Below, one piece after another: positions 1 to 10,093 of a DNA stretch of 21,301 nucleotides. The notes under the pieces were generated by a model, which saw nothing but the letters and a program-made list of their open reading frames with translations, was not told the origin of the DNA and did no database searches. Every line of letters starts with the position of its first letter. Position 1 is the first letter of the stretch. The stretch lies in the IMG/VR virus record IMGVR_UViG_3300043464_001481, positions 1 through 21,301 of that record; one strand, given 5' to 3'. Position numbers and translations under genes: made by a program. Origin of the DNA: a virus.

Positions 1-300
1 AAGCAGGCAGGTCGCGGAAATCTCCAGGCGGAGAATGTCCAGAGCCTCGCTGCCGCTCGCATCGCTCTCGAGGACATGTTCTTCGGATGGCGCGATCAGC
101 ACGAGTATGAGCGCCGTTGGAGCATGACTGACCCAGACTGGGACAGCGTCACTTGCTCTCTCCTGCCAGTAGGCGTCAAGTTCACCGACGACGGCAAGAA
201 GGACAGCAATGGTCAGTTCTTGCGGACTAAGTATTCGGCTCAGGGCGGGACACTCATCCTGCTTCGCGGATACGAGTTCAAGGAGGGCGAGGATGAGTGA
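1..300 (+). CDS. Unknown protein, 5' end outside window
   Basis: The reading frame is open from the first base of the window, so the gene probably begins upstream; an internal ATG at 76 is possible but has no clear ribosome binding site. The visible product ends with residues GYEFKEGEDE and is rich in charged residues, with a Trp-rich stretch (FFGWRDQHEYERRW, then DPDWDS). I recognise no family. Its 3' end overlaps the next gene by 8 bases and carries that gene's Shine-Dalgarno (AAGGAGGG), which implies translational coupling in a four-gene cluster whose promoter lies outside the window. Confidence 0.6.
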   Translation, partial: KQAGRGNLQAENVQSLAAARIALEDMFFGWRDQHEYERRWSMTDPDWDSVTCSLLPVGVKFTDDGKKDSNGQFLRTKYSAQGGTLILLRGYEFKEGEDE

Positions 301-559
301 GGATGTATTCAACCCAGCCAACTCACAGCTGCTCCATGACATGCTCTCTGGTCGGCGCGTAGCCGCAGAGCGCAACATGGAAGACTGCGAGGACGGCAGC
401 ATCAAGCGTATCTGGCATCGAGCCGCGATGGCTTATGGCAGGGCGCTCGCAGCAGCCAAGGAAGGCGACGACTCAGAGTGTAAGACCGAGAGCCGCATTG
501 CCATCGAGATTGAGGACATGGCTTTCGATGCAGAAAGGAGCAAGAAGGATGCCAAGTAA
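293..559 (+). CDS. Small unknown protein, 88 aa
   Basis: The start at MSEDVFNPAN is chosen because AAGGAGGGCG lies just upstream; longer versions of the frame would run far into the previous gene. The product is hydrophilic and mostly helical by composition, with an Ala/Glu-rich second half (RALAAAKEGDDSE, then AIEIEDMAFDAERSKKDAK). It has no membrane segment or cysteine motif. It overlaps both neighbours by 8-11 bases, so it is the second member of a coupled cluster. No family is recognised. Confidence 0.7.
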   Translation: MSEDVFNPANSQLLHDMLSGRRVAAERNMEDCEDGSIKRIWHRAAMAYGRALAAAKEGDDSECKTESRIAIEIEDMAFDAERSKKDAK

Positions 560-806
560 GTATCAGGATACTGACATCATCGAGTTGCCGTTCGAGAAGT
601 GGCTCAGTGCAGTTAACCGCAAAGTCCTCGGGACCTGCGGTCTCGGCATTGACGACCTTCCAGACGCCGACTTCCAAGAGTACTACCCGGGCGAGAAGGC
701 ATCGTTCGGCGAATACAAGGAAGCGGTCAAGGACTGCGCCGACCATGTGATTAGATATGCGGGCGGCTCAATGCTGCTCCAAGAAACGGAGGACATGTAT
801 GAGTAA
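549..806 (+). CDS. Small unknown protein, 85 aa
   Basis: It starts at MPSKYQDTD behind AAAGGAGCAAGAAGG and overlaps the preceding stop by 11 bases. The product is soluble and acidic, with mixed helix-forming stretches (FEKWLSAVNRKVLG, then FGEYKEAVKDCADHVIRYAGG). Two cysteines are present but not in a zinc-ribbon arrangement. It overlaps the following DUF3846-like gene by 8 bases, which supports co-translation. I do not recognise the family. Confidence 0.7.
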   Translation: MPSKYQDTDIIELPFEKWLSAVNRKVLGTCGLGIDDLPDADFQEYYPGEKASFGEYKEAVKDCADHVIRYAGGSMLLQETEDMYE

Positions 807-1260
807 AGCGATTCTCTTGGTGCCGGGAGCGACTGAGCCGAAACTCGTCGATTTCCCAAGCCGTGAGCAGGTTGTTTCCAGCGGCGAGTCTAACTTGTCG
901 CTCTACTACTCGCTCATCGGCTGCTCGATGATTAGCGTCGGTCTGTCGCTCAAGATGGGCGACTACGAGGCAGTCATCGTTATCGACGACGAAGGTCTCT
1001 ATCGCGGCCCTGTCGGCGACGACGGCTTGCGAATGCCAGCGCTGTACAACGCGCTTGCTAGCGGTCTCGTTCGCAACGAGTACAACGCAGGACCGACCAG
1101 TCCAATCGTCGGAACAGGGCTAATCGTACAGGGCGACGATGATGGCAATCTCTTCGGCTTCGGAGAGAAGGAACTGGCTGAGGTCATGGCGAAGATTGAT
1201 GCGGTCGATCCGCGCGAGGCTACGCCACGGGAGCTCGAGTTCATTGCCAACTTCGTCTAG
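799..1260 (+). CDS. DUF3846-like protein, 153 aa
   Basis: The start at MSKAILLVPG follows ACGGAGGACATGT. The layout resembles DUF3846 proteins of phages and plasmids: an N-terminal strand with a pro-gly turn (ILLVPGATEPKLVDF), a central ICxS-like segment replaced here by LIGCSMISVGLS, the strand-rich core VIVIDDEGLYRGPVG, Asn/Ala-rich LYNALASGLV, and a closing IVGTGLIVQGDDDGNLFGFGE. The function of that family is unknown; members lie among early accessory genes and plasmid transfer genes. It is the last gene of the first cluster, and its stop is followed within 3 bases by the first regulatory box. The family call rests on pattern recognition, not a search. Confidence 0.65.
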   Translation: MSKAILLVPGATEPKLVDFPSREQVVSSGESNLSLYYSLIGCSMISVGLSLKMGDYEAVIVIDDEGLYRGPVGDDGLRMPALYNALASGLVRNEYNAGPTSPIVGTGLIVQGDDDGNLFGFGEKELAEVMAKIDAVDPREATPRELEFIANFV

Positions 1261-1262
1261 TT

Positions 1263-1378
1263 GTTGCGCCAGGTGAGACATTTGTGCTCGCCTGTTGACA
1301 ACGGTAGGAAGAGGCAGTAAGTTAACAGTAGAGGTTTGGATAAGCCCTCCCCGCTTCGCGGCGGGGAGGCGCCACCTC
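1263..1378 (+). promoter_or_regulatory. Promoter cassette 1 (GTTGCG class)
   Basis: The box GTTGCGCCAGGTGAGAC (1263-1279) is followed after 15 bp by TTGACA (1295-1300), a 17-bp spacer and TAAGTT (1318-1323). Predicted +1 is near 1330. The leader then folds as CCTCCCCGC (1346-1354), a 6-nt loop and GCGGGGAGG (1361-1369), possibly extended by outer GAGG/CCTC pairs (1331-1334 with 1375-1378). AAGGAGGT lies 6 nt before the second ATG of the DUF1281-like gene. The -10 is the weakest of the set. The box begins 3 bases after the previous stop codon. Confidence 0.85.
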
Positions 1379-1400
1379 AAGTAGGACAAGGAGGTAGATG

Positions 1401-2228
1401 ATGCCAAACTGGTGCGTCAACAAACTAACAGTTATCGGACCCAAGGAATCCCGAGACCGCATCGTTGCGCAGGTCAAGGGCGAGGACACCGACTTTGACT
1501 TCGCCAAGGTAATCCCTATGCCAGAGACTCCGACCTATTCAGCCACTTCGTCGAACACGGCGTTCACCTGCGGCTGCACATCGGAGTACATTGACAACGC
1601 ATGGCGCATCAACGGCAAGGAAGTCGTTAAGAAGGCAACAGATAACGGGACCATCGGCACTACCATTAGCGGGACCGCCGACTACTGCCCGGAGCATGAT
1701 GCCATCGGCGTCCAGTACTCTCCGAACAACTGGTACAACTGGAATGTCGCCCACTGGGGAACCAAGTGGAACGCTTCTGAGGCGTACGTTGACCACTCTG
1801 ACGCCATGACCATCATCCACTTCGAGACCGCATGGGCTCCAGCCGAGCCTGTAGTCGTGGCACTTGCTGAGCAGTTTGTTGACTGCCAGATTACCCACGA
1901 TTATGTCGAGTGCGGCATGGAGTTCGCTGGTCGCAAGGTATTCAATGTACTCGATGATGACCAAGTCATCCTGCTTACCAAGTTGTCCGGGGCAGTCCGC
2001 AAGGAGACCACCACGGAGAAGACAACAGGCTTCGACGGCGAAGAGCGCTCATACGATAGAACCGTCTGGTACAACGAGCAGGGAGATGAGACGCACCCTT
2101 CGCTCTGGGATTACGATGACCGCGGCGCGTCGCTGGGTCTGCTACAGCAGGAGGTAGACGTTCAGGGCGGTCTCGAGTTCCAAGCAGTAGCGATGATGCT
2201 CTTCCCAGACTCTGGCTGGGGCGGCTGA
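1401..2228 (+). CDS. DUF1281/YubB-like protein, 275 aa
   Basis: Two adjacent ATGs exist; the second is chosen because its 6-nt distance from GGAGG matches the sibling genes and because the family typically begins MPNWC. The product shows MPNWCVNKLTVIG at the N terminus, a Cys cluster near residues 50-60 (CGCTSEY), NNWYNWNVAHWGTKW around residues 113-127, and HFETAWAPAEPVV after that. These are hallmarks of the DUF1281/Api92 family with a ferredoxin-like fold, found in phages and plasmids. The molecular function is unknown. It is a single-gene transcription unit from cassette 1, followed by a structured non-coding stretch. Confidence 0.8.
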   Translation: MPNWCVNKLTVIGPKESRDRIVAQVKGEDTDFDFAKVIPMPETPTYSATSSNTAFTCGCTSEYIDNAWRINGKEVVKKATDNGTIGTTISGTADYCPEHDAIGVQYSPNNWYNWNVAHWGTKWNASEAYVDHSDAMTIIHFETAWAPAEPVVVALAEQFVDCQITHDYVECGMEFAGRKVFNVLDDDQVILLTKLSGAVRKETTTEKTTGFDGEERSYDRTVWYNEQGDETHPSLWDYDDRGASLGLLQQEVDVQGGLEFQAVAMMLFPDSGWGG

Positions 2229-2453
2229 TTAAATCCGTGCCAGCGCGTAAAGGCTGGCTAGTTGGCGGACGAATAACCGCCCGTGACGATAAGGACTGTC
2301 GGCGTAGCTCCCTGACCGGGGCGAGGCCAGCAGCAGCAGTCAAGCGAAAGCCCGAGGCTGCCTCCGCAAGGGGATAAGCGTCAAGCCGCGAAAAGGCAGC
2401 GACACTACCCTGCCGTCTAGTCAACGGCAGGGGTCGCAACTCAGTCGAACGCT
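2229..2453 (+). ncRNA. Candidate structured RNA or 3' UTR
   Basis: This 225-base gap holds no plausible gene but is full of foldable elements. GCCAGC/GCTGGC pairs at 2239-2258. GGCGG/CCGCC pairs at 2264-2281. GACTG (2294-2298) can pair with CAGTC (2337-2341), enclosing GCTCC/GGGGC (2307-2322). Possible GNRA loops (GAAA, GCAA) lie at 2346 and near 2366. A 9-bp perfect stem, CCCTGCCGT/ACGGCAGGG (2408-2432), is closed by outer GCGAC/GTCGC (2399-2403 with 2433-2437). The last hairpin could end transcription before cassette 2, but no U tract follows. I cannot assign it to a known RNA class; it may simply be a structured 3' UTR. Confidence 0.45.
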
Positions 2454-2538
2454 GTTGCGCCAGGTGAGACAGTTTCACCGGGCTGTTGACATCGTCGATC
2501 ATAGGTAGTAATGTCGCAGTAGAGGGGAAGTGCCCCTC
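2454..2538 (+). promoter_or_regulatory. Promoter cassette 2 (GTTGCG class, palindromic)
   Basis: The box lies at 2454-2470, then 15 bp, TTGACA (2486-2491), 17 bp, and TAATGT (2509-2514). Predicted +1 is near 2521. The hairpin GAGGGG (2522-2527), loop AAGTG, CCCCTC (2533-2538) starts at +1 or +2. The 3' part of the box continues into an imperfect palindrome, GGTGAGACaGTTTCACC, shared only with cassette 3. AGGAGG precedes the ATG at 2559. Confidence 0.88.
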
Positions 2539-2558
2539 AGTAGATAGGAGGACAAGAC

Positions 2559-2993
2559 ATGAGCATCATGGAAACCAATCGGGAGATTACTGAGGAACAG
2601 CACAACGCCATCGTTGACAGGCTGCACTTCCCTCGCGAGGAGGGATGGGAGCATGGCATCAGGCACTTCGCTGAACTGACGCCAAGTGATCTCGACGCCA
2701 TCCGCGCGATCGCCCCTGGCTTCGTCGACGACGAGCCATGGAACGACTTCGAGGGCACAAAGTGGCTTCAGCAGCAGCTCGCGGATTGCGGCATCACGGA
2801 ATACACGATGCACGGCTACATCCTGCCGATGGGTCGCTCAGATCGTCGCCTGACGGTCGAGGGCTGCTACATCGATTACGCGCCACTCGCTGCGATCCTC
2901 AACCTTCTCGGCAAGGTCGACACAGCCGACGAGAAGTCGTTCGAGATTGACCAAGACCAGAAGGGCGCATCGCTCTTCCTCTGGTGGGATTGA
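2559..2993 (+). CDS. Unknown protein, 144 aa
   Basis: The start is fixed by ATAGGAGGACAAGAC immediately upstream. The product is acidic and soluble. Notable stretches are FPREEGWEHGIRHFAELT, PWNDFEGTKWLQQQLADCG, and a C-terminal part with the strand-rich YTMHGYILPMGRSDRRLTVEG ending GASLFLWWD. No catalytic motif is recognised. The following gene begins 2 bases after its stop, so the two form a bicistronic unit driven by cassette 2. Confidence 0.72.
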   Translation: MSIMETNREITEEQHNAIVDRLHFPREEGWEHGIRHFAELTPSDLDAIRAIAPGFVDDEPWNDFEGTKWLQQQLADCGITEYTMHGYILPMGRSDRRLTVEGCYIDYAPLAAILNLLGKVDTADEKSFEIDQDQKGASLFLWWD

Positions 2994-2995
2994 TC

Positions 2996-3355
2996 ATGAG
3001 CGACGGATACAACGGATGGTCGAATCGTGAGACCTGGCTTGCAAATCTCTGGATTGCCAACGACGGCTATGCGGGAGGAGCAGACGAGGTAGATCGGATG
3101 GCAAGAGAGGCCCTTGAAGATGCTGACGGAGATCGTGATGATGCGACCTACAACCTCAGCAAGCAGATTGAGGCAGCCATTGACAGCGACTACGAGCAGA
3201 CAGTCAAAGCCAGCGGATTGTTCGATGACCTATTAGGCGGTGCTCTTGCGAGAATCGACTGGTATGAGATTGCGCGGCACTATGTCGATTACGCGGTCTC
3301 GGAGTCGAACGCAGAGGCTGTTGCGTCAGGTGAGACAGTTTCACCGGGCTGTTGA
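2996..3355 (+). CDS. Conserved phage protein, GWSNRETWLANLW motif, 119 aa
   Basis: The start at MSDGYNGWSNRETW is preferred over an upstream in-frame ATG inside the previous gene, because family members I know of begin close to the GWxNxETWLxxLWxxN motif (residues 7-22). The family is widespread in phages and has no known function. The rest is helical and acidic (ADEVDRMAREALEDADGD, then WYEIARHYVDYAV). The last residues, VASGETVSPGC, are encoded by the regulatory box of cassette 3 itself, and the stop codon TGA is part of its TTGACA. The C-terminal tail may therefore be shaped by DNA-binding constraints rather than protein function. Confidence 0.75.
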   Translation: MSDGYNGWSNRETWLANLWIANDGYAGGADEVDRMAREALEDADGDRDDATYNLSKQIEAAIDSDYEQTVKASGLFDDLLGGALARIDWYEIARHYVDYAVSESNAEAVASGETVSPGC

Positions 3356-3404
3356 CAACGGCAGCCTAGTTTAGTAATGTCATAGTAGAGGGGAAGTTCC
3401 CCTC
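3320..3404 (+). promoter_or_regulatory. Promoter cassette 3 inside a coding 3' end
   Basis: The box is GTTGCGTCAGGTGAGAC (3320-3336), then 15 bp, TTGACA (3352-3357), 17 bp, TAATGT (3375-3380), with +1 near 3387. The hairpin GAGGGGA (3388-3394), loop AGT, TCCCCTC (3398-3404) follows, then AAGGAGGT. Apart from one C/T difference in the box, the sequence from the box through TTGACA is identical to cassette 2, including the GGTGAGACaGTTTCACC palindrome. The box is translated in frame as VASGET by the upstream gene. Confidence 0.88.
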
Positions 3405-3423
3405 ATTAGCAAGGAGGTAGAAC

Positions 3424-3888
3424 ATGGCAGACAGTTATCAGTTCTTCGAGTACGAGATCTCAAGGAAGCGAGTAGACGAGGGCAAGCCGAAGCGCATCGA
3501 GTCGCCGAAGATGGCGGTAGAGGCACTAGAGTCCATTCTCGATGTCGACAAGGAGCAGCTATTCGCTGTAGTCGTCGATGGTCGGAACGGTCTCATCGGC
3601 TACGAGAAGATTTATCAGGGCACGGCGACAGGCACAAGCGTGCGAATCGCTGACCTGTTCCGACTCGCTGTCAACATCGGCGGCGTCGGTCTCGTCGTTC
3701 TCCACAATCACCCAAGCGGAGACAACGAGCCTTCTGAGCAGGACATGCAACTCACTCGGGAGATTATCAAGGCTTCGAGGCTTCTCGACATTGAGTTCCT
3801 CGATCACCTCGTATACGGCGGATCATCAGAGGAGAAGTACTACTCTATCCGCCAGCACAACAGCGAAGTATGGACGGAGGTAGAATAA
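3424..3888 (+). CDS. RadC-like JAB/MPN-domain protein, 154 aa
   Basis: The JAMM metal site is visible as H94-N-H96-P-S-G-D followed by S104 and D107 (HNHPSGDNEPSEQD), with an upstream Glu at residue 61 (YEKIYQG) in the usual place. This is the RadC/DUF2466 domain without the N-terminal helix-hairpin-helix part of full-length RadC; the first 40 residues are unrelated. Isolated RadC domains are common in phages, plasmids and defence or anti-defence loci. They are predicted zinc hydrolases of unproven substrate, and a DNA-repair role for RadC is disputed. The next gene overlaps its stop (TAATG). Confidence 0.88.
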   Translation: MADSYQFFEYEISRKRVDEGKPKRIESPKMAVEALESILDVDKEQLFAVVVDGRNGLIGYEKIYQGTATGTSVRIADLFRLAVNIGGVGLVVLHNHPSGDNEPSEQDMQLTREIIKASRLLDIEFLDHLVYGGSSEEKYYSIRQHNSEVWTEVE

Positions 3889-4229
3889 TGAGCGAGATTA
3901 AGCCTATCCCAGCAGAGGTAAAGGAAGCGTTCCGCGATGTAGCAGGAGGAGACGAGAGCATCTCGCTTATCTCTTGCGTTTATCGCGGCGAGCCAAACTG
4001 GGTCATCGCAAAGGTAGAGGAGCGCGAGATTGGCGGATATTCCGTCACCCCGCTCTTCATGACCATGACCCCGGAGATGTTCGATCAGACCGAGAATCCT
4101 GCACCAGCCCTCAAAGGTAAGCTCGCAGAGATCAACGGCTATGAGAAATACGCTGACATCGAGGAAATCACAGACATGGAAGCGAAGCAGATGCTCGACG
4201 GTATTGAGCAGATGTTTCGTATCCAGTGA
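3888..4229 (+). CDS. Unknown protein, 113 aa
   Basis: It starts at MSEIKPIPAEVKEAF on an ATG that overlaps the RadC-like stop codon by one base, so it is translationally coupled. The product is acidic, with no cysteine-metal site and no membrane segment. It includes VYRGEPNWVIAKVEEREIGG and a helical C terminus (EEITDMEAKQMLDGIEQMFRIQ). The arrangement suggests co-expression with the RadC-like and HTH proteins. No family is recognised. Confidence 0.72.
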   Translation: MSEIKPIPAEVKEAFRDVAGGDESISLISCVYRGEPNWVIAKVEEREIGGYSVTPLFMTMTPEMFDQTENPAPALKGKLAEINGYEKYADIEEITDMEAKQMLDGIEQMFRIQ

Positions 4230-4738
4230 GCCCCGCTAGGTCGTGGCGCAACGCGATTATTGCGGAGCGCTACGCCCAGGGCGAGACTATGGAGGAGATC
4301 GGCAAGCTCTACGGGATTTCTCGTCAGCGTGTCCACTCGATCCTGATTGCGGCGGGAGTCGAACGCAGGAGTCGCGGCGGCTCTAGGGCAGCGAAGCTGG
4401 ATTACGATCGAGTTGTCCGGGAGTACAATCGAGTGCTCTCAGTCTACGAGGTCTCCAAGGTCGTAGGGTGCTCGACATCAACAGTCTACGGAATCCTTCA
4501 GAGATGCGGGACACCGTTGATTCGCCGCAGCAAATTCAATGACCTCCCGATGGAGGCGATCAAGCAGCGGTATCTCTCGGGCGAGAGGCTCGATGCCATC
4601 GCTTCGTCGGTCGGCGTCAAGTCAAACTACCTGAACAACCTGCTTCGGAAGTATGGCGTTCCGCGCAGGAGCAACCGCGGACGAAAGTCTCCTGTTGCGT
4701 CAGGTGAGACGGCTGTTGACACGGGTCAGCAGATTTAG
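4226..4738 (+). CDS. Triple helix-turn-helix DNA-binding protein, 170 aa
   Basis: The GTG start overlaps the preceding stop (GTGA). Three homologous HTH units follow one another. The first, residues 20-43, reads ETMEEIGKLYGISRQRVHSIL, typical of sigma-70 region 4-like folds. The second is at 72-95 (VYEVSKVVGCSTSTVYGILQ) and the third at 120-145 (ERLDAIASSVGVKSNYLNNLL). Basic linkers (RRSRGGSRAAK, RRSNRGRKS) separate or follow them. No catalytic domain is present, so it is probably a transcription factor or a DNA-architecture protein. Its C-terminal residues VASGET are encoded by the box of cassette 4. It is an attractive but unproven candidate for binding one of the cassette boxes, which would make it autoregulatory. 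Confidence 0.8.
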   Translation: MSPARSWRNAIIAERYAQGETMEEIGKLYGISRQRVHSILIAAGVERRSRGGSRAAKLDYDRVVREYNRVLSVYEVSKVVGCSTSTVYGILQRCGTPLIRRSKFNDLPMEAIKQRYLSGERLDAIASSVGVKSNYLNNLLRKYGVPRRSNRGRKSPVASGETAVDTGQQI

Positions 4739-4783
4739 TAGTGTATCGGTAGGGTCCCTGGGCTTTTCAGGGTCCCTACCGAT
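4694..4783 (+). promoter_or_regulatory. Promoter cassette 4 (box one helical turn closer)
   Basis: GTTGCGTCAGGTGAGAC (4694-4710) is followed by only 5 bp, against 15 elsewhere, before TTGACA (4716-4721). Then come 17 bp and TAGTGT (4739-4744). Predicted +1 is near 4751. A long hairpin has 16-base arms at 4745-4760 and 4768-4783 with a single T-T mismatch; the part downstream of +1 (AGGGTCCCTG pairing with CAGGGTCCCT) would sit at the very 5' end of the RNA. AAGGAGGT precedes the ATG at 4803. The box and the -35 lie inside the end of the triple-HTH gene. Confidence 0.85.
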
Positions 4784-4802
4784 TTAGAGAAGGAGGTAGA
4801 TC

Positions 4803-5423
4803 ATGGAAGCACTTTGGACAGCAGCACAGGTAGAGGGCAAGATTACGGCAAAGGTCTATCAGGATGATGATTCGTTTCTGACGATTGACGATCATCTCCC
4901 AGAGCGAATCACAAAGTTCGTAGTCACCGACGGCGCGGCTGATCGCGGTTGCCCGCAGGACATCAAGCCTACATTTGACGAGAGCGACGATACGCATGAC
5001 TTCGACAGGGAGCCATTCGCATTCTTCGCGCCTCTTTATATGCTTGACCACAGCGGAGTTCGCATCAGTCTGAACTCGTTCAACGATCCATGGGACAGCG
5101 GATGCTGCGGCTTCGTCGGCGTTCTCAAGGAGGACATCGTCAAGCAGTACGGCGAGCTGACCCAGGATACGGAGCAGCAGGCTCTTCAGCAGATGCGCAG
5201 TGAAGTCGAGACGATTTCCAACATCTTCGCTGGGAACGTCTACGGGTATGTCGTAGAGGAGCGACAGTTCTGCGAGTCATGCCAGACGGAAAAGTGGGAG
5301 ACCGTCGACTCATGCTGGGGATTCGTCGGAGACGCCAAGTATGTCAACGAGAATGCCGTAGAATCCCTTAGGTCGATCCTCTCAGAAAAGGGTATGGAGG
5401 ACGAGATTGAGGTAATCGCCTAA
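4803..5423 (+). CDS. Conserved phage protein, 206 aa
   Basis: It starts behind AAGGAGGTAGATC. The central segment APLYMLDHSGVRISLNSF, then WDSGCCGFVGVLKEDIVKQYG, resembles a family of uncharacterised phage proteins carrying LYxYDHSG and WDSGxxGF motifs. A short Cys pair (CESC) and the motif VDSCWGFVGD lie in the C-terminal third. No transmembrane segment is seen. The function of the family is unknown. It is a monocistronic unit from cassette 4, followed by a 340-base gap. Confidence 0.75.
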   Translation: MEALWTAAQVEGKITAKVYQDDDSFLTIDDHLPERITKFVVTDGAADRGCPQDIKPTFDESDDTHDFDREPFAFFAPLYMLDHSGVRISLNSFNDPWDSGCCGFVGVLKEDIVKQYGELTQDTEQQALQQMRSEVETISNIFAGNVYGYVVEERQFCESCQTEKWETVDSCWGFVGDAKYVNENAVESLRSILSEKGMEDEIEVIA

Positions 5424-5650
5424 AGCGGTTTGCCGGGAGGAGAGTTTTGGTCTGACGCGAGTTTTGGTCTGGCGCCGATTTTGTTTTGGGCTCTATATAT
5501 ATGCTCGTCGCATTAGCTACAGCTCGAGAGTACCTCCCTCGAGCGCCATCAAGCCGTCGTCGATCGCGAGAGTCCAGACTCGCTTTCGGCGGCGGCCCTT
5601 TCTTTTGCCGGAAGATTTGCCGGAAGCGCAGCCTAGTCGCCATACAACCT
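5424..5650 (+). other. Non-coding spacer with repeats and hairpins
   Basis: No convincing gene is seen. The 13-mer GAGTTTTGGTCTG occurs twice with a 17-bp period (5442-5454, 5459-5471). A T-rich and TATATATA stretch lies around 5479-5503 and resembles one at 8370-8392. Perfect inverted repeats GCTCGAG/CTCGAGC (5522-5528, 5538-5544) and GCGAG/CTCGC (5566-5583) precede a pyrimidine-rich CCCTTTCTTTT and could end transcription. TTTGCCGGAA occurs twice 12 bp apart (5604-5613, 5616-5625). Confidence 0.55.
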
Positions 5651-5748
5651 GTTGCGCCAGGTGAGACATTTTGCTCTAGGGGTTGACAGCGGTCGAGATA
5701 TTAGGTATGGTAGAAGAGTCGAACGGGAAGCAGTGAGCAACCCGCGAC
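5651..5748 (+). promoter_or_regulatory. Promoter cassette 5 (GTTGCG class)
   Basis: The box is at 5651-5667, then 15 bp, TTGACA (5683-5688), 17 bp, TATGGT (5706-5711), with +1 near 5718. The leader starts exactly with GTCG (5718-5721), AA, CGGG (5724-5727), a 13-nt loop, CCCG (5741-5744) and CGAC (5745-5748). This is the second hairpin family (GTCG-AA-CGG) seen also in cassettes 7, 8 and 9. AAAGGAGG precedes the ATG at 5769. Confidence 0.88.
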
Positions 5749-5768
5749 ACAGACAAAGGAGGCACGCG

Positions 5769-6011
5769 ATGAGCTACATGGACAATCTCGAATCGGTGCT
5801 CAAAGAGTACAAGGAGAACGAGGCATCGGAGGAGAACGCATCGATCGCACTCACCTGGCTCCAGATGGCTCGACTCGCAGCGGCGATGAACCTCGAGCCA
5901 CAGTTCAAGAACGCCTTCAAGAAGGCTATCGACTTCGGCGCGAAAGCAGAAGCCGAGTACACCGCAGATGAGGCGGCACACAACGACCTCGTCGACCAAG
6001 GGCTCGCCTGA
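5769..6011 (+). CDS. Small unknown helical protein, 80 aa
   Basis: It starts at MSYMDNLESVLKEYKEN behind AAAGGAGGCACGCG. The product is almost entirely helix-forming and rich in Ala, Glu and Lys (NAFKKAIDFGAKAEAEYTADEAAHNDL). It has no Cys or membrane segment and may be a small adaptor or inhibitor. It is the only gene of its unit and is followed by a strong hairpin. No family is recognised. Confidence 0.72.
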   Translation: MSYMDNLESVLKEYKENEASEENASIALTWLQMARLAAAMNLEPQFKNAFKKAIDFGAKAEAEYTADEAAHNDLVDQGLA

Positions 6012-6017
6012 GGACCC

Positions 6018-6054
6018 GGGAGGAGAGCGCGGCCAAACAGCCCGCTCTCTTCCC
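6018..6054 (+). terminator. Hairpin after the 80-aa gene, likely terminator
   Basis: GGGAGGAGAGCG (6018-6029) pairs with CGCTCTCTTCCC (6043-6054) over 12 positions with one G-U pair, and the loop can add GGC/GCC. There is no U tract. It sits between a stop codon and the next promoter, the expected place for insulation between units. Confidence 0.6.
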
Positions 6055-6069
6055 AGGAGATCGCGAAAT

Positions 6070-6159
6070 GTTAAGAAAATGTAATCATCTATTTTGCGAA
6101 AAAGGGTTGACAACGGTTGAGAAATCAGGTATGGTATCTATAGAGGGGAAGTTCCCCTC
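6070..6159 (+). promoter_or_regulatory. Promoter cassette 6 (GTTAAG class)
   Basis: In place of the GTTGCG box there is GTTAAGAAAATGTAAT (6070-6085), a slightly degenerate copy of GTTAAGAAAATTTAAC. It is 21 bp from TTGACA (6107-6112); then 17 bp and TATGGT (6130-6135). Predicted +1 is near 6142, and the GAGGGGA/TCCCCTC hairpin (6143-6149, 6153-6159) follows. The gene start at 6181 is preceded by a GGAGG-type site. Confidence 0.85.
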
Positions 6160-6180
6160 AGGAGAATGGAGGACAGCGCA

Positions 6181-6351
6181 ATGAGCAAGAGCAAGAAGCA
6201 GCAGCGCACCGAGGCTCGCGAGGCAGCGAAGAAGCACTCGGTCTGGAAAGTGCGCCAGAACCTGCTCGAGATGGCAGCGGAAGGCGGCACGATCTGGATG
6301 CTCGACGAGCGACTGAGCCAGACGGCTCTTCGCAAGGCACTGAAGAAGTAG
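6181..6351 (+). CDS. Small basic protein, MSKSKKQ family, 56 aa
   Basis: The N terminus MSKSKKQQRTEAREAAKKHS is very close to that of the gene at 8948 (MSKSKKQLRTEAKEAAKKRS), so the two are paralogues. Both are driven by a GTTAAG-class cassette with the same hairpin, which indicates duplication of the whole cassette plus gene. The N-terminal half is strongly basic and helical, suggesting nucleic-acid or ribosome binding; the second half (LLEMAAEGGTIWMLDERLSQ) is amphipathic. The family is not recognised outside this window. Confidence 0.78.
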   Translation: MSKSKKQQRTEAREAAKKHSVWKVRQNLLEMAAEGGTIWMLDERLSQTALRKALKK

Positions 6352-6365
6352 AGAGGAGAGGACAA

Positions 6366-6728
6366 ATGAAGATCAAACTCAGCCACCATTCGATCGACCG
6401 AATCCGAGAGATCTACACAGACAAGACATCGAGCGCCGATGCTCGCGACTTCTGCGCGGACATTCTTCGCAGGACCGCCTGCCTCGACCTCCCGATCGAC
6501 TGCGACAAAGGCCACTTCGTCACGCTCTCAAAGGACACGCTCCAGCAGCTCATCGCCGTCGTCGTCGAGGACACCTGGCTCTCAAAGTGCTCGGGATGCG
6601 ACGAGATGAAGCCAGCATGCCGCGCCAACAGCGACTGGGAGGACACGCGCGGACACGGCTGCGAATCTTGCGACGAATGCGACCAGACATACGCTGACAT
6701 CGCATACGACCAAGCCTACATCTATTAG
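6366..6728 (+). CDS. Unknown protein with Cys-rich C-terminal zinc-ribbon-like region, 120 aa
   Basis: It starts behind GAGAGGAGAGGACAA, 14 bases after the previous stop, so it shares cassette 6. The N-terminal 70 residues form a mixed helix-strand region (SIDRIREIYTDKTSSADARDF, then HFVTLSKDTLQQLIAVVVED). Residues 75-105 hold six cysteines: C75, C78, C85, C99, C102 and C105, in a CxxC-x6-C and CxxCxxC pattern able to bind zinc. Function is unknown; a nucleic-acid or protein adaptor role is an inference. Confidence 0.75.
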   Translation: MKIKLSHHSIDRIREIYTDKTSSADARDFCADILRRTACLDLPIDCDKGHFVTLSKDTLQQLIAVVVEDTWLSKCSGCDEMKPACRANSDWEDTRGHGCESCDECDQTYADIAYDQAYIY

Positions 6729-6744
6729 CGATTGGAGGAACGGC

Positions 6745-6773
6745 GGCTCTCGCGTCTATGCAGACCGGGAGCT
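6745..6773 (+). terminator. Bipartite hairpin, likely terminator
   Basis: GGCTCTCG (6745-6752) pairs with CGGGAGCT (6766-6773) with two G-U pairs. Inside it GTCT (6754-6757) pairs with AGAC (6762-6765) around an ATGC loop. There is no U tract. It lies just after the stop of the Cys-rich gene and 3 bases before the next regulatory box. Confidence 0.6.
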
Positions 6774-6776
6774 GCT

Positions 6777-6866
6777 GTTGCGCCAGGTGAGACATTTTGA
6801 CAAAGGGGTTGACAAAGGTGAAAGCGGATGGTATTTTAGAATAGTCGAACGGGGACAATCCCCGAC
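6777..6866 (+). promoter_or_regulatory. Promoter cassette 7 (GTTGCG class)
   Basis: The box is at 6777-6793, then 15 bp, TTGACA (6809-6814), 17 bp, TATTTT (6832-6837), with +1 near 6844. The leader begins GTCG-AA and then CGGGGA (6850-6855), loop CAA, TCCCCG (6859-6864). TAGGAGGAG precedes the ATG at 6884. Confidence 0.88.
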
Positions 6867-6883
6867 AGGATAGGAGGAGAGAA

Positions 6884-7165
6884 ATGAGCACGATGAAAGA
6901 GCAGATGATCGACGAGCAGAATCGACACATCACGGAGCTCAACGACCAAGGCTGGACCAGAGTCGACATCAACCCGATCCAGTGGGTCGCGCTCCAGCGG
7001 GACACCGACGGAAACTTCGGCGGAACGCTATGGACGCTCGGCAGCGATAGCGGCTACCACTCCGCATCAGAGGCGACTGCTGGATTCCCAGTCGAGCTCG
7101 CCGCAGCACAGGACTTCACGACAATCGCGCTGAAGGTCGCTCAGGCGATCAAGGAGGGTAAATGA
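6884..7165 (+). CDS. Unknown protein, 93 aa
   Basis: It starts at MSTMKEQMIDEQNRHI behind ATAGGAGGAGAGAA. After a helical N terminus the core looks strand-rich (GWTRVDINPIQWVALQRD, then NFGGTLWTLGSDSGYHS), followed by a C-terminal helix (DFTTIALKVAQAIKEG). It overlaps the next gene by ATGA. It heads a unit of four small genes from cassette 7. No family is recognised. Confidence 0.72.
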   Translation: MSTMKEQMIDEQNRHITELNDQGWTRVDINPIQWVALQRDTDGNFGGTLWTLGSDSGYHSASEATAGFPVELAAAQDFTTIALKVAQAIKEGK

Positions 7166-7386
7166 CAGTAGAGGCTAAGCCAAAGAAGTTCGACTGCCCG
7201 GGATGCGACGAGGAGCACTCGACCTGGGCGGCGGCGCTCTCGCGCTTCGACAACCAGACAAAGGTCTGCCGAAAGTGCGGCGAGTATGAGGCGTGGATTC
7301 AGATCGACGCCCACTTCTCAGGATACGATGTCCACGCAGCCCTCACGGGCTTCGGGCTCCACAACAAGTTCCCGGGACAGCGTTGA
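7162..7386 (+). CDS. Small zinc-ribbon protein, 74 aa
   Basis: The ATG overlaps the upstream stop (ATGA) and follows AAGGAGGG. Four cysteines form C12-x2-C15 and C36-x2-C39 (CPGC and CRKC), a standard zinc ribbon, within a 74-residue protein. The C-terminal part (GYDVHAALTGFGLHNKFPG) is unlike known ribbons. Such proteins often bind nucleic acid or act as adaptors; nothing more specific can be said. Confidence 0.75.
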   Translation: MTVEAKPKKFDCPGCDEEHSTWAAALSRFDNQTKVCRKCGEYEAWIQIDAHFSGYDVHAALTGFGLHNKFPGQR

Positions 7387-7571
7387 GCTGCCGAGCAATC
7401 GTCGACTGGCAACCCGGCGGAGGACGCTTCTGCGGCGTCCCCGCCGAGCGCCGCGTCACGATCCTGACGCCATTCCAAGGCGGTCGCTTCATCAAGGCCA
7501 GAGTAGCCCTATGCGAATTGCACGCAAATGCGAAGAAAAGCGACAGGAGCTTCGCGCCTACCAGGAGATAG
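7383..7571 (+). CDS. Small Cys/His protein, TTG start, 62 aa
   Basis: A TTG start overlapping the previous stop codon gives MSCRAIVDWQPGGGRF. Residues C3, C17, C44 and H47 (FCGVPAERRV, then VALCELHA) form a likely zinc site, a pattern common in small actinophage and GC-rich phage proteins. The tail is basic. The start codon is unusual but is supported by the 4-base overlap and by the Cys pattern starting right after it. Confidence 0.65.
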   Translation: MSCRAIVDWQPGGGRFCGVPAERRVTILTPFQGGRFIKARVALCELHANAKKSDRSFAPTRR

Positions 7572-7657
7572 CGAAGGATCTGCTTACAGAGCGCGCCGTA
7601 GAACGCGATCTGCTTATAGCGCGCGCAGTAGAACGCGAATCTGGGCGGGGACCCTAG
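7511..7657 (+). CDS. Possible small repeat-containing protein, 48 aa
   Basis: The frame starts at MRIARKCEEKRQELRAYQ, overlapping the previous gene by 61 bases in another frame. Its second half is encoded by a 30-base tandem duplication (7577-7606, 7607-7636; 27 of 30 identical), giving DLLTERAVER then DLLIARAVER. The unit being exactly ten codons and lacking stops favours coding. There is no clear ribosome binding site, so the gene is uncertain. The composition predicts a charged amphipathic helix. Confidence 0.4.
   Translation: MRIARKCEEKRQELRAYQEIAKDLLTERAVERDLLIARAVERESGRGP
7577..7636 (+). repeat. 30-bp tandem direct repeat, two units
   Basis: Two adjacent 30-base units differ at three positions. 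A related stretch, CAGAGCGCAGTAGAACGC, recurs at about 9363-9380 inside the end of the second small membrane protein gene, read in the same frame (AVER). This suggests copying of sequence between cassettes. Confidence 0.8.
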
Positions 7658-7720
7658 GCTTTCAGCGGGGCCCCTAGCGTTTTCCGGATCTCAGCCTAGT
7701 CCGATTTGCCGGAATAGCCT
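7658..7720 (+). other. Spacer with degenerate hairpin and shared motifs
   Basis: CTAGG (7653-7657) can pair with CCTAG (near 7672) and is followed by CGTTTTCC, a weak terminator-like element. The sequence resembles the long leader hairpin of cassette 4 (GG[A/T]CCCT...GGCTTT...CAG) and may be a decayed copy. CAGCCTAGTC and TTTGCCGGAA (7705-7714) are shared with the spacer upstream of cassette 5. Confidence 0.45.
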
Positions 7721-7814
7721 GTTGCGCCAGGTGAGACGTTTTTAGAAAAGGGTTGACAACGGTTTCCATCTGTAGTATTTTAGAATCGTCGAACCGGGGG
7801 CGGTCCTCGGCGAC
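7721..7814 (+). promoter_or_regulatory. Promoter cassette 8 (GTTGCG class)
   Basis: The box is at 7721-7737, then 15 bp, TTGACA (7753-7758), 17 bp, TATTTT (7776-7781), with +1 near 7788. The hairpin starts at +1: GTCG (7788-7791), AA, CCGGGGG, loop CGG, TCCTCGG, CGAC (7811-7814), with G-U pairs. TAGGAGG precedes the ATG at 7842. Confidence 0.88.
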
Positions 7815-7841
7815 GAAACCGTAGTATTAGGAGGACAGAAG

Positions 7842-8210
7842 ATGTCAAAAGACGGACCACGAAACACGCGCGTTCGAATCGGCTCAGTCGGAGTCGATAG
7901 CGGCCAGCTGATGATCGTCGATCCATGCTACATCAAGAGTGACTTCGAGGTCGACTACGACCAGGAGGAGATCGACAAGATCCAGGCAGGAAGCCCAGCC
8001 GAAGTACCGCTGAACTATAACGGCGCCTGCGCCGTAACTCTCGGCGAGGATTCGGCAGGATCGATGATGCACGGGCTAGCCGTCGCATTCTCCAGCGGAT
8101 ACGGAGACGGCGTCTATCCAGTCTACGCGACATACAACGACGACGGTCGCATCGTCAAAGTCGAAATCGAAATGGGATTCGACGACGAGGACGAGGAGGA
8201 GGATTTCTAG
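7842..8210 (+). CDS. DUF4241-like phage protein, 122 aa
   Basis: The start follows TTAGGAGGACAGAAG. The N-terminal part GSVGVDSGQLMIVDPCYI (about residues 14-31) and the C-terminal GYGDGVYPVYATYNDDGRIV (about 87-106) match the pattern of DUF4241-related phage proteins, in which a GxGDGxYPVY strand pair is typical. The extreme C terminus is very acidic (FDDEDEEEDF). The function of the family is unknown. It is a single-gene unit followed by two hairpins. Confidence 0.72.
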   Translation: MSKDGPRNTRVRIGSVGVDSGQLMIVDPCYIKSDFEVDYDQEEIDKIQAGSPAEVPLNYNGACAVTLGEDSAGSMMHGLAVAFSSGYGDGVYPVYATYNDDGRIVKVEIEMGFDDEDEEEDF

Positions 8211-8478
8211 GAGGCGCGTCCATCGCCTCACACCGCCCCGGGTCAGGACCGCCCTGGCTCGGGGCATCCCCATAAATCCATCGATGCATTTGCAGCTTGC
8301 GATTTGCCGGAAGCGAAACCGGCGCCGGAAGTTTTTTTGGCGTTTGTTTCAGTTTTTTTGAAGGGGTGTTTTTTTTGGGCAGATTATATATACATCGCGT
8401 CGTCTTCGTCTCGTCGTCTTCGTCGAACGCGCGCGCGCCAGCCAGCGAAATCGCCGTCCCGGCAGCCCCCAAGATGCT
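8211..8478 (+). other. Non-coding spacer with hairpins and T-rich tract
   Basis: No gene is seen. GAGGCG/CGCCTC (8211-8229) and a large stem, GCCCCG/CGGGGC with inner GTCAGG/CCTGGC (8235-8265), follow the stop. GCCGG/CCGGC (8306-8323) precedes a run of seven T (8332-8338), the most terminator-like element here. Further on lie T-rich blocks, TATATATA, a 13-mer direct repeat CGTCGTCTTCGTC (8398-8410, 8412-8424) and a CG-dinucleotide run. The T-rich and TATATATA part parallels 5479-5503. Confidence 0.6.
8235..8338 (+). terminator. Hairpins and T-run after the DUF4241-like gene
   Basis: The stem at 8235-8265 is about 12 bp with a G-U pair and a 4-nt loop. The GCCGG/CCGGC hairpin 40 bases later is followed by GCCGGAAG and T7. 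One or both probably stop transcription before cassette 9. Confidence 0.55.
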
Positions 8479-8576
8479 GTTGCGCCAGGTGAGACATTTT
8501 GAGAAAGGGGTTGACAAGGGTACAACGGTGAGGTATAATAGAAGAGTCGAACGGGAAGCAGTCAGCCGACCGCGAC
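8479..8576 (+). promoter_or_regulatory. Promoter cassette 9 (perfect -35/-10)
   Basis: The box is at 8479-8495, then 15 bp, TTGACA (8511-8516), 17 bp, TATAAT (8534-8539): a perfect sigma-70 consensus. Predicted +1 is near 8546, exactly where GTCG-AA-CGG (8546-8554) begins; it pairs with CCG-CGAC (8570-8576). GAAGGAGAGGAC precedes the ATG at 8597. Confidence 0.92.
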
Positions 8577-8596
8577 GCGAACGAAGGAGAGGACAA

Positions 8597-8851
8597 ATGA
8601 CACAGGCAGAATTCGTCAAGCGCAACAGCCACATCAAGACAGCCGACAACTGGATGCGGCTCGCGATGTCTTATGAGCGCGACGCCCGGTCGATGCGCGA
8701 CAAGTTCTTCCGCCGCACCAACGCCGAGGACAGCCTAGGCTACGCTGCGCAATGGCGAGCCGATGCCGAGCGCTACGAGCAGCTCGCCCGATGGAGCCGC
8801 GATGAGGAGCGAATCGCTCGCAGCTCCGAGCGCAACAACATCCGAGGTTAA
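8597..8851 (+). CDS. Small unknown helical protein, 84 aa
   Basis: It starts at MTQAEFVKRNSHIK behind AAGGAGAGGACAA. The protein is highly charged and helical (MRLAMSYERDARSMRDKFF, then AAQWRADAERYEQLARWSRD) with a heptad-like pattern that suggests a coiled coil. Its TAA stop is contained in the GTTAAG box of cassette 10. No family is recognised; the strong consensus promoter suggests high expression. Confidence 0.72.
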   Translation: MTQAEFVKRNSHIKTADNWMRLAMSYERDARSMRDKFFRRTNAEDSLGYAAQWRADAERYEQLARWSRDEERIARSSERNNIRG

Positions 8852-8926
8852 GAAAATTTAACCTTCGAAAGGGTTGACAAGCGTAAGAGCTTTTAGTATT
8901 GTATACATAGAGGGGAAGTGCCCTTC
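8847..8926 (+). promoter_or_regulatory. Promoter cassette 10 (GTTAAG class, short spacing)
   Basis: GTTAAGAAAATTTAAC (8847-8862) lies 11 bp from TTGACA (8874-8879), 10 bp closer than in cassettes 6 and 11. Then come 17 bp and TATTGT (8897-8902), with +1 near 8909. The hairpin GAGGGG (8910-8915), loop, CCCTTC (8921-8926) has one G-U pair. The box overlaps the stop codon of the preceding gene. Confidence 0.87.
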
Positions 8927-8947
8927 ACAAGCAGAGAGGACAGCAAA

Positions 8948-9112
8948 ATGAGCAAGAGCAAGAAGCAACTTCGGACCGAAGCCAAGGAAGCCGCCAAGAA
9001 GCGAAGCCTCTGGCACGCGCGCCAGATGATGCTCGACGCGGTTCGCGAGCAAGGCATCGCCTGGACCGTCGTAGACACGATGAGCCAGTTCGGAAAGAAG
9101 GAGACAAAATGA
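8948..9112 (+). CDS. Small basic protein, MSKSKKQ family paralogue, 54 aa
   Basis: It is a paralogue of the gene at 6181: the first 20 residues differ at only a few positions (MSKSKKQLRTEAKEAAKKRS) and the rest keeps the W-x-x-RQ pattern (LWHARQMMLDAVREQG). The N-terminal half is strongly basic. It is coupled through ATGA to a small membrane protein, unlike its paralogue, which is followed by a Cys-rich gene. This shows that the downstream partner was exchanged while cassette and first gene were kept. Confidence 0.78.
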   Translation: MSKSKKQLRTEAKEAAKKRSLWHARQMMLDAVREQGIAWTVVDTMSQFGKKETK

Positions 9113-9273
9113 AGCGGCTACTCACTTACCGCGAGCAACTTATCCTTCGCGAAACGGAGACCTGGAACCGGCAGCAGGAGCGAAGGCGCATCCTGCTCGG
9201 CATCCTGCTCGTAGTCGCGACGATCGCCGTTCTGGCAATCGCTGGATGCAACGGCTCGCACGGTCGCTGCTAG
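9109..9273 (+). CDS. Small membrane protein with lipobox-like LAIAGC, 54 aa
   Basis: It starts by ATGA overlap, behind AAGAAGGAGACAAA. Residues 1-28 are polar and Arg-rich (LILRETETWNRQQERRR). Residues 29-46 form one hydrophobic helix (ILLGILLVVATIAVLAIAG), followed by CNGSHGRC. The LAIAGC end looks like a lipobox, but cleavage would leave only an 8-residue lipopeptide, and the N-terminal region is long for a signal peptide, so a simple anchored membrane protein is likelier. It overlaps the next membrane protein gene by 28 bases. Confidence 0.65.
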   Translation: MKRLLTYREQLILRETETWNRQQERRRILLGILLVVATIAVLAIAGCNGSHGRC

Positions 9274-9410
9274 CGATTGTCGCGCTGCTGCTGCTAACGG
9301 CAATAGCCGCGGCCGCCGCGATTACAATCGCCGCCAGCTTCGTCATCAAAGTGCTGCCTATACAGAGCGCAGTAGAACGCAAACCTGAGGCAAATGTTAA
9401 GAAAATTTAA
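9246..9410 (+). CDS. Small membrane protein, 54 aa
   Basis: The frame starts at MQRLARSLLAIVALLLL inside the previous gene and ends in ANVKKI, with its TAA inside the GTTAAG box of cassette 11. Residues 7-36 are continuously hydrophobic (LLAIVALLLLTAIAAAAA and onward), one or a long single membrane helix. The tail LPIQSAVERKPE is polar. With its neighbour it forms an overlapping pair of one-segment membrane proteins. A lysis, superinfection-exclusion or membrane-stress role is conceivable but not shown. The ribosome binding site is not clear. Confidence 0.55.
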   Translation: MQRLARSLLAIVALLLLTAIAAAAAITIAASFVIKVLPIQSAVERKPEANVKKI

Positions 9411-9504
9411 CCTACTATTTTGGGAAAAGGGGTTGACAAGGGTATAAAGGTTTAGTATTGTACAAGTAGAGGGGGTCAACGGTGGCACTCGCCACCGACC
9501 CCTC
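9396..9504 (+). promoter_or_regulatory. Promoter cassette 11 (GTTAAG class)
   Basis: GTTAAGAAAATTTAAC (9396-9411) is 21 bp from TTGACA (9433-9438), then 17 bp and TATTGT (9456-9461), with +1 near 9468. The hairpin is the longest of the GAGGGG family: GAGGGGGTC (9469-9477), AAC bulge, GGTGGC/GCCACC (9481-9496, loop ACTC), GACCCCTC (9497-9504). AGAAGGAGAG precedes the ATG at 9522. Confidence 0.88.
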
Positions 9505-9521
9505 AAAAGAAGGAGAGAGAA

Positions 9522-9929
9522 ATGAACTTCGTAGCAACGCTCCTCGCAATCGTCGGCGTAGACCAGAAGCGCACCGAAAAGGCAGCCCAGGTCGCGGCGC
9601 CGCGCGCGGCAGAGCCACGACCAGAGTTCCGACGCGACGGCTACTACAACCGCTTCACCGACGCGATGGGAAATCAGGTCGACAGCGAAGTCGCCGAGTA
9701 CCGCGAGTACATCACCGTGACCGTGAGCCCGATGGGAACGCCATACTTCTCGCACATCTGGCAGAAGCGCGACGAGCGAGGATTCTGGTCGGAGCGACTA
9801 GATTGCCCAGCCAACCGATTCGCGATGCGCAGCGAGGCAGAGGCAATCGCCAAGGTGCGCGAGCTCGTCGAAGGCGATTCCCGCTGGACACACTCGTCAG
9901 AGGTAAAGCAGCCAGCGACCGCCTGGTAG
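9522..9929 (+). CDS. Unknown protein, 135 aa
   Basis: It starts behind AAGAAGGAGAGAGAA. A short hydrophobic N terminus (MNFVATLLAIVGV) is followed by an Ala/Pro/Arg linker (AAQVAAPRAAEPRPEFRRD) and then a strand-rich core with EYREYITVTVSPMGTPYFSHIW and ERGFWSERLDCPANRF. A helical end (EAEAIAKVRELVEGDS) closes it. The N terminus is too short for a confident membrane anchor. No family is recognised. It is the last gene of the cassette array. Confidence 0.72.
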   Translation: MNFVATLLAIVGVDQKRTEKAAQVAAPRAAEPRPEFRRDGYYNRFTDAMGNQVDSEVAEYREYITVTVSPMGTPYFSHIWQKRDERGFWSERLDCPANRFAMRSEAEAIAKVRELVEGDSRWTHSSEVKQPATAW

Positions 9930-10093
9930 CCAGCCGACGGAGCCGTCGCCCCTAAAAAGGCGGCGGCTTCGCCGCACCCATAAATGGCGGCTTGCCGGTC
10001 CAGCCACGCCGTAGAACCGGTGGATTGTTACAGTCCGGTTTGTTACAGTCAGGCGCCTGGTCGCGCAGGCCGTTTCCCGATTTCGGTTGAACT
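9930..10093. other. Spacer with palindromes and TTGTTACAGTC direct repeats
   Basis: CGACG/CGTCG (9935-9948) and GCGGC/GCCGC (9963-9975) hairpins follow the stop. Read on the minus strand the second is followed by CGCC and TTTTT, a plausible terminator for leftward transcription. The 11-mer TTGTTACAGTC occurs twice, 15 bp apart (10025-10035, 10040-10050), upstream of the next promoter and could be an operator pair. No gene is seen. Confidence 0.5.

Follow-up and report, generated by a model that had tools for sequence, protein, structure and literature searches.

In this study, we analyzed a stretch of DNA from an uncultured phage (IMG/VR record IMGVR_UViG_3300043464_001481; the window hereafter means this whole stretch of 21,301 nucleotides). 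Our results suggest that a box repeated along it is probably the upstream protein-binding site of a repeated phage promoter cassette, and that the VASGET or VAPGET tails of proteins whose genes run into the box are by-products. Overlap with the ends of genes is most readily accounted for as a side effect of carrying promoter cassettes in a compact genome.

First, the box (box A, TGTTGCGYCAGGTGAGAC) was found in eight copies in the window, all on the + strand (1262, 2453, 3319, 4693, 5650, 6776, 7720 and 8478). It was nearly invariant across 18 nt and had a fixed position upstream of a TTGACA-N17-TAnnnT promoter in all eight same-strand copies. Its single Y position was T in copies 3319 and 4693, which are embedded in coding sequence, and C in the six others, as the original prediction had stated. 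The copies and the two genes that run into them are as follows.

1262-1279, + strand: box A (C), starting 1 nt past the upstream gene's stop codon TAG (1258-1260); TTGACA at 1295-1300, -10-like TAAGTT at 1318-1323
2453-2470, + strand: box A (C), intergenic; TTGACA at 2486-2491, -10-like TAATGT at 2509-2514
2996-3355, + strand: DUF7249-family gene (PF23907, 3.2e-10), 119 aa, whose 3' end passes through box A
3319-3336, + strand: box A (T) within the DUF7249 gene, read as V-A-S-G-E-T
3352-3380, + strand: promoter TTGACA-N17-TAATGT
4226-4738, + strand: GTG-initiated gene for a DNA-binding protein of 170 aa with a triple HTH; the 3' end of the gene passes box A, the -35 hexamer and the spacer
4693-4710, + strand: box A (T) within the HTH gene, read as V-A-S-G-E-T
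4716-4744, + strand: promoter TTGACA-N17-TAGTGT, with 5 nt between box and TTGACA, 10 bp less than elsewhere for box A
5650-5667, + strand: box A (C), intergenic; TTGACA at 5683-5688, TATGGT at 5706-5711
6776-6793, + strand: box A (C), intergenic; TTGACA at 6809-6814, TATTTT at 6832-6837
7720-7737, + strand: box A (C), intergenic; TTGACA at 7753-7758, TATTTT at 7776-7781
8478-8495, + strand: box A (C), intergenic; TTGACA at 8511-8516, TATAAT at 8534-8539

No additional copy of GTTGCGYCAGGTGAGAC was present in the window at up to two mismatches, and the backwards control of this pattern gave no match there. The core GTTGCGYCA matched nine times in the window against 0.43 expected from shuffling, the ninth (4244-4252, - strand) being an isolated short match. 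A search of Rfam matched no family. A cellular origin of the box was considered and rejected: genome_contigs (257 Gb) gave 34 single exact matches dispersed across unrelated phyla, which by our own estimate is about the chance level for a 17-mer in which one base is degenerate. Four loci with one box match each and no promoter after it (L003, L005, L006 and L007) were set aside, and a relaxed scan for a half-box plus TTGACA returned mostly noise.

Two relatives were available for comparison. The window's first 15,346 bases are 99.6% identical to IMGVR_UViG_3300002835_000358, a contig reaching further left, where two extra box A copies, both T and both intergenic, were found. The sole diverged relative found, IMGVR_UViG_3300008262_000175 (G002), is 81% identical over 4610-6865; multiple cassette copies occur within one genome, and their positions in G002 are mostly orthologous to those in the window. 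The longest related contig is 44 kb. Portal and head proteins had distant matches only, and the helicase, portal, DnaC and tail genes likewise gave only distant and mixed matches.

Second, the order of the promoter unit was the same throughout: an upstream box, then the TTGACA-N17-TAnnnT promoter (one copy in the longer contig has TTGACT instead), then a 5' leader, in most cases with a predicted hairpin, and finally a Shine-Dalgarno sequence, box A lying ahead of the promoter and about 90-140 nt 5' of the start codons. All array promoters in the window, 11 units in total, carried either box A or a second element, box B, which preceded three of them.

6070-6085, + strand: box B GTTAAGAAAATGTAAT, 21 nt ahead of TTGACA 6107 (11 nt in the orthologous G002 promoter)
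8847-8862, + strand: box B GTTAAGAAAATTTAAC, 11 nt ahead of TTGACA 8874
9396-9411, + strand: box B GTTAAGAAAATTTAAC, 21 nt ahead of TTGACA 9433

Box A stood 15 nt from TTGACA except in copy 4693 and its G002 orthologue, where the distance was 5 nt in the window, the near-identical contig and the diverged contig alike; automatic spacers of 2-3 nt reflected a second TTGAC within the spacer, the actual promoter being at 15. Box B stood 21 or 11 nt, and once 10 nt, from TTGACA across the window and both relatives, and the spacing of one orthologous box B promoter pair differed by exactly 10 bp between the window and G002. These 10-bp steps in both elements are indicative of a bound protein that would have to face RNA polymerase, and suggest a putative activator contacting the polymerase from one face of the DNA. 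Box B (GTTAAGAAAATTTAAC) presumably resembles the half-sites of OmpR/PhoB-family regulators. In the longer contig (locus L070 in G001, left of the window), one promoter is preceded by three GGTTAAG repeats spaced 11 bp apart. Two paralogous small genes (MSKSKKQ..., 6181-6351 and 8949-9112) each have a box B promoter before them, suggesting that genes and promoters were duplicated together.

Activator-dependent promoters usually have poor -35 hexamers, and a point against an activator is that the hexamers here are already consensus, because of which a repressor or an UP-like role may also be considered. A second reservation is that the 10-bp step of box A represents a single event. The main rival reading is that the box is an operator, comparable to stoperators or ESAS repeats, at which a phage repressor would silence the array. 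The consensus hexamers suggest promoters active unaided, genes for HTH proteins are present in the phage (4226-4738, 19225-19488 and 19485-19841), and temperate phages are known to have repeated operators. However, the box lies about 5-15 nt 5' of the -35 hexamer and not over the core promoter, helical register with the -35 is maintained in both box types, and there was no integrase among the genes scanned, which were part of the gene set. We therefore regard an operator as unlikely, and favor a site for a protein that would aid transcription.

The leaders and flanks of the putative activator-bound cassettes also carried repeated features.

3388-3404, + strand: hairpin GAGGGGAAGTTCCCCTC in the 5' leader, where transcription is predicted to start
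4745-4783, + strand: strong 5'-leader hairpin (-29.1 kcal/mol, z -4.3)

Predicted folding of the leaders was strong at 4745-4783 and 9461-9521 and weak at 8539-8596, and relative to shuffled sequences the z scores ranged from -0.7 to -4.3, mostly a mild advantage. A 13-nt stretch, CGGAGTCGAACGC, was common to the DUF7249 gene end that precedes copy 3319 and to the non-coding sequence ahead of both extra copies (p ~0.003 each against random pairs from the same region); either the cassette took along part of the DUF7249 gene end, or the stretch belongs to the cassette itself. The related 9-mer AGTCGAACG occurred six times in 1-9960 against 0.04 expected, on the + strand only (2444, 3304, 4358, 5718, 6844 and 8546), lying 5' of box A in the left cassettes and forming an arm of the leader hairpin in the right ones. 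Elsewhere, positions 2229-2452 of the window are G+C-rich and non-coding with substantial predicted folding (z -2.2) and no Rfam match, and may represent a structured RNA. Near 3020 (+) of locus L098, a near-perfect palindrome (TGTCTCATCAGGTGAGACA) between divergent TTGACA promoters has the right half of box A in common.

Third, the ends of the two overrun genes were compared with those of their homologues. Both open reading frames, 2996-3355 and 4226-4738, read the box in the same frame as V-A-S-G-E-T in unrelated proteins, as had been predicted from the letters alone. ORF 2996-3355 scored above the PF23907 gathering threshold (41.3 bits; cut-off 27) and ends ...ESNAEA-VASGET-VSPGC, and its stop TGA (3353-3355) falls within the -35 TTGACA (3352-3357), which also agrees with the original prediction. 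ORF 4226-4738 ends ...GRKSP-VASGET-AVDTGQQI, and its stop TAG (4736-4738) directly abuts the -10-like TAGTGT. Thus only the DUF7249 protein ends in the -35 hexamer, and VASGET is the extreme C terminus of neither.

Among the 79 DUF7249 homologues retrieved, the window's own copy excluded, VA[SP]GE was absent from all. The tail past the W-x-E-I-A motif was measurable in 68 homologues, those with a recognizable motif and a stop, and its median length there was 14 aa (range 4-84); the window's tail of 24 aa is long and not unique, as 7 of the 68 were at least as long. In a five-sequence alignment the other native ends fell approximately at ESNAEA of the window, shortly ahead of the box, and the homologue in locus L063, which additionally encodes RadC and a DUF3846-like relative, terminates TENAEAE without a downstream cassette. 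Similarity of the HTH protein to phrog_1303 extends only to residue 155, one residue before PVASGET, and three Bacillus phage homologues carry an unrelated tail instead. Homologues of both proteins are distant, which limits how exactly the former stops can be placed, and tblastn of the two proteins against phages at 1e-5 gave no match. The proposed comparison with cassette-free homologues thus came out as anticipated, and the suggestion that the DNA element overwrote protein ends is supported in the sense that the cassette appears to have extended or replaced both C termini.

It could also be supposed that the upstream genes always ended where they do now, and that the element evolved inside pre-existing coding tails without insertion or overwriting. 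Phage genes commonly overlap regulatory sequence, and the HTH overlap is already present in G002 and is therefore old. Against this stand the identical 18 nt at eight sites, six of them non-coding, and the other or shorter tails in the homologues of both proteins, so that such an origin seems very improbable to us.

On the other hand, the C/T difference turned out to be independent of embedding. In the window alone, the association of T with embedding has a probability of 1/28; with the near-identical longer contig included, Fisher's p rose to 0.13, and with G002 also added it was 0.18. Thus, T and embedding are not associated once the relatives are counted. In G002, the copy orthologous to 4693 is likewise embedded, with its reading frame conserved, but carries C and reads VAPGET. 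When the HTH end was compared with G002, six of the seven differences ahead of the last pre-box codon were synonymous, and the amino-acid-changing codons were that last codon (P/R) and the S/P codon in the box (all small numbers). A shared open frame would arise by chance in about 1/2 to 1/3 of cases, and it is weak evidence because one of the three box frames contains TGA. It is therefore hardly conceivable that VASGET is a selected motif or shared C-terminal tag with T chosen for Ser over Pro, as the frame shared by two unrelated proteins and the T of both window copies might suggest, given that a shared frame is often expected with two of three frames open, that the motif occurs in none of the 79 DUF7249 homologues, and that Pro in G002 and the two intergenic T copies of IMGVR_UViG_3300002835_000358 led us to reject the Ser-over-Pro choice that had been proposed. 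The C/T site behaves as one tolerated variable position in a DNA element.

As far as the accounts of them go, the closest precedents are the PeSL (promoter early stem-loop) cassettes and the SAS/ESAS repeats. The former are reportedly mobile regulatory cassettes of T4-type phages, said to have been described by Arbiol et al. in 2010 and Comeau et al. in 2014, and we know of no report of box A or its register in either system. PeSL, which is also mentioned in PMC4503421, is reported to be a repeated intergenic early promoter plus stem-loop, dense among small genes and thought to mediate shuffling. This phage likewise has a repeated promoter plus stem-loop, in 11 units with box A or B. Unlike PeSL as so described, it has, ahead of the promoter, a box of 18 nt in fixed register, with the hairpin placed in the 5' leader, and it is not visibly T4-like. 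In cluster K mycobacteriophages, short conserved repeats precede many genes, SAS lying immediately 5' of the start codon and ESAS being a 17-bp inverted repeat, and some upstream termination codons are marked within the conserved sequence (PMC3203893). Box A is similar in that the stop of an upstream gene can fall in the repeated element, whereas it precedes a sigma70-type promoter, is unrelated in sequence, and shows neither start-codon adjacency nor 17-bp inverted repeats.

Taken together, we propose that a cassette consisting of the box, a sigma70-like promoter, a hairpin-prone 5' leader and a Shine-Dalgarno sequence may have been copied before many small early-type genes, and that a phage or host DNA-binding protein most likely binds the box and would aid RNA polymerase from one constant side of the helix. 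In two places the cassette would occupy the former end of the preceding gene; an overrun gene would then read into the box and halt at the first in-frame stop codon it meets, which lies within the -35 in one case and immediately ahead of the -10 in the other, and the VASGET and VAPGET tails would result from DNA-level constraint, the amino acids not themselves being selected. A more tentative possibility, which we hold to be somewhat unlikely, is that there is one promoter family with two interchangeable upstream elements, each tolerated at whole-turn spacings only and together placing the small genes in two independently controlled regulons, and that spread of the cassette has repeatedly given unrelated proteins new C termini. 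On the favored reading, our results would provide a clean natural example of protein C termini shaped by a regulatory constraint acting on the DNA, and the spacing pattern of the array offers a testable prediction of one-face activation in an uncultured phage.
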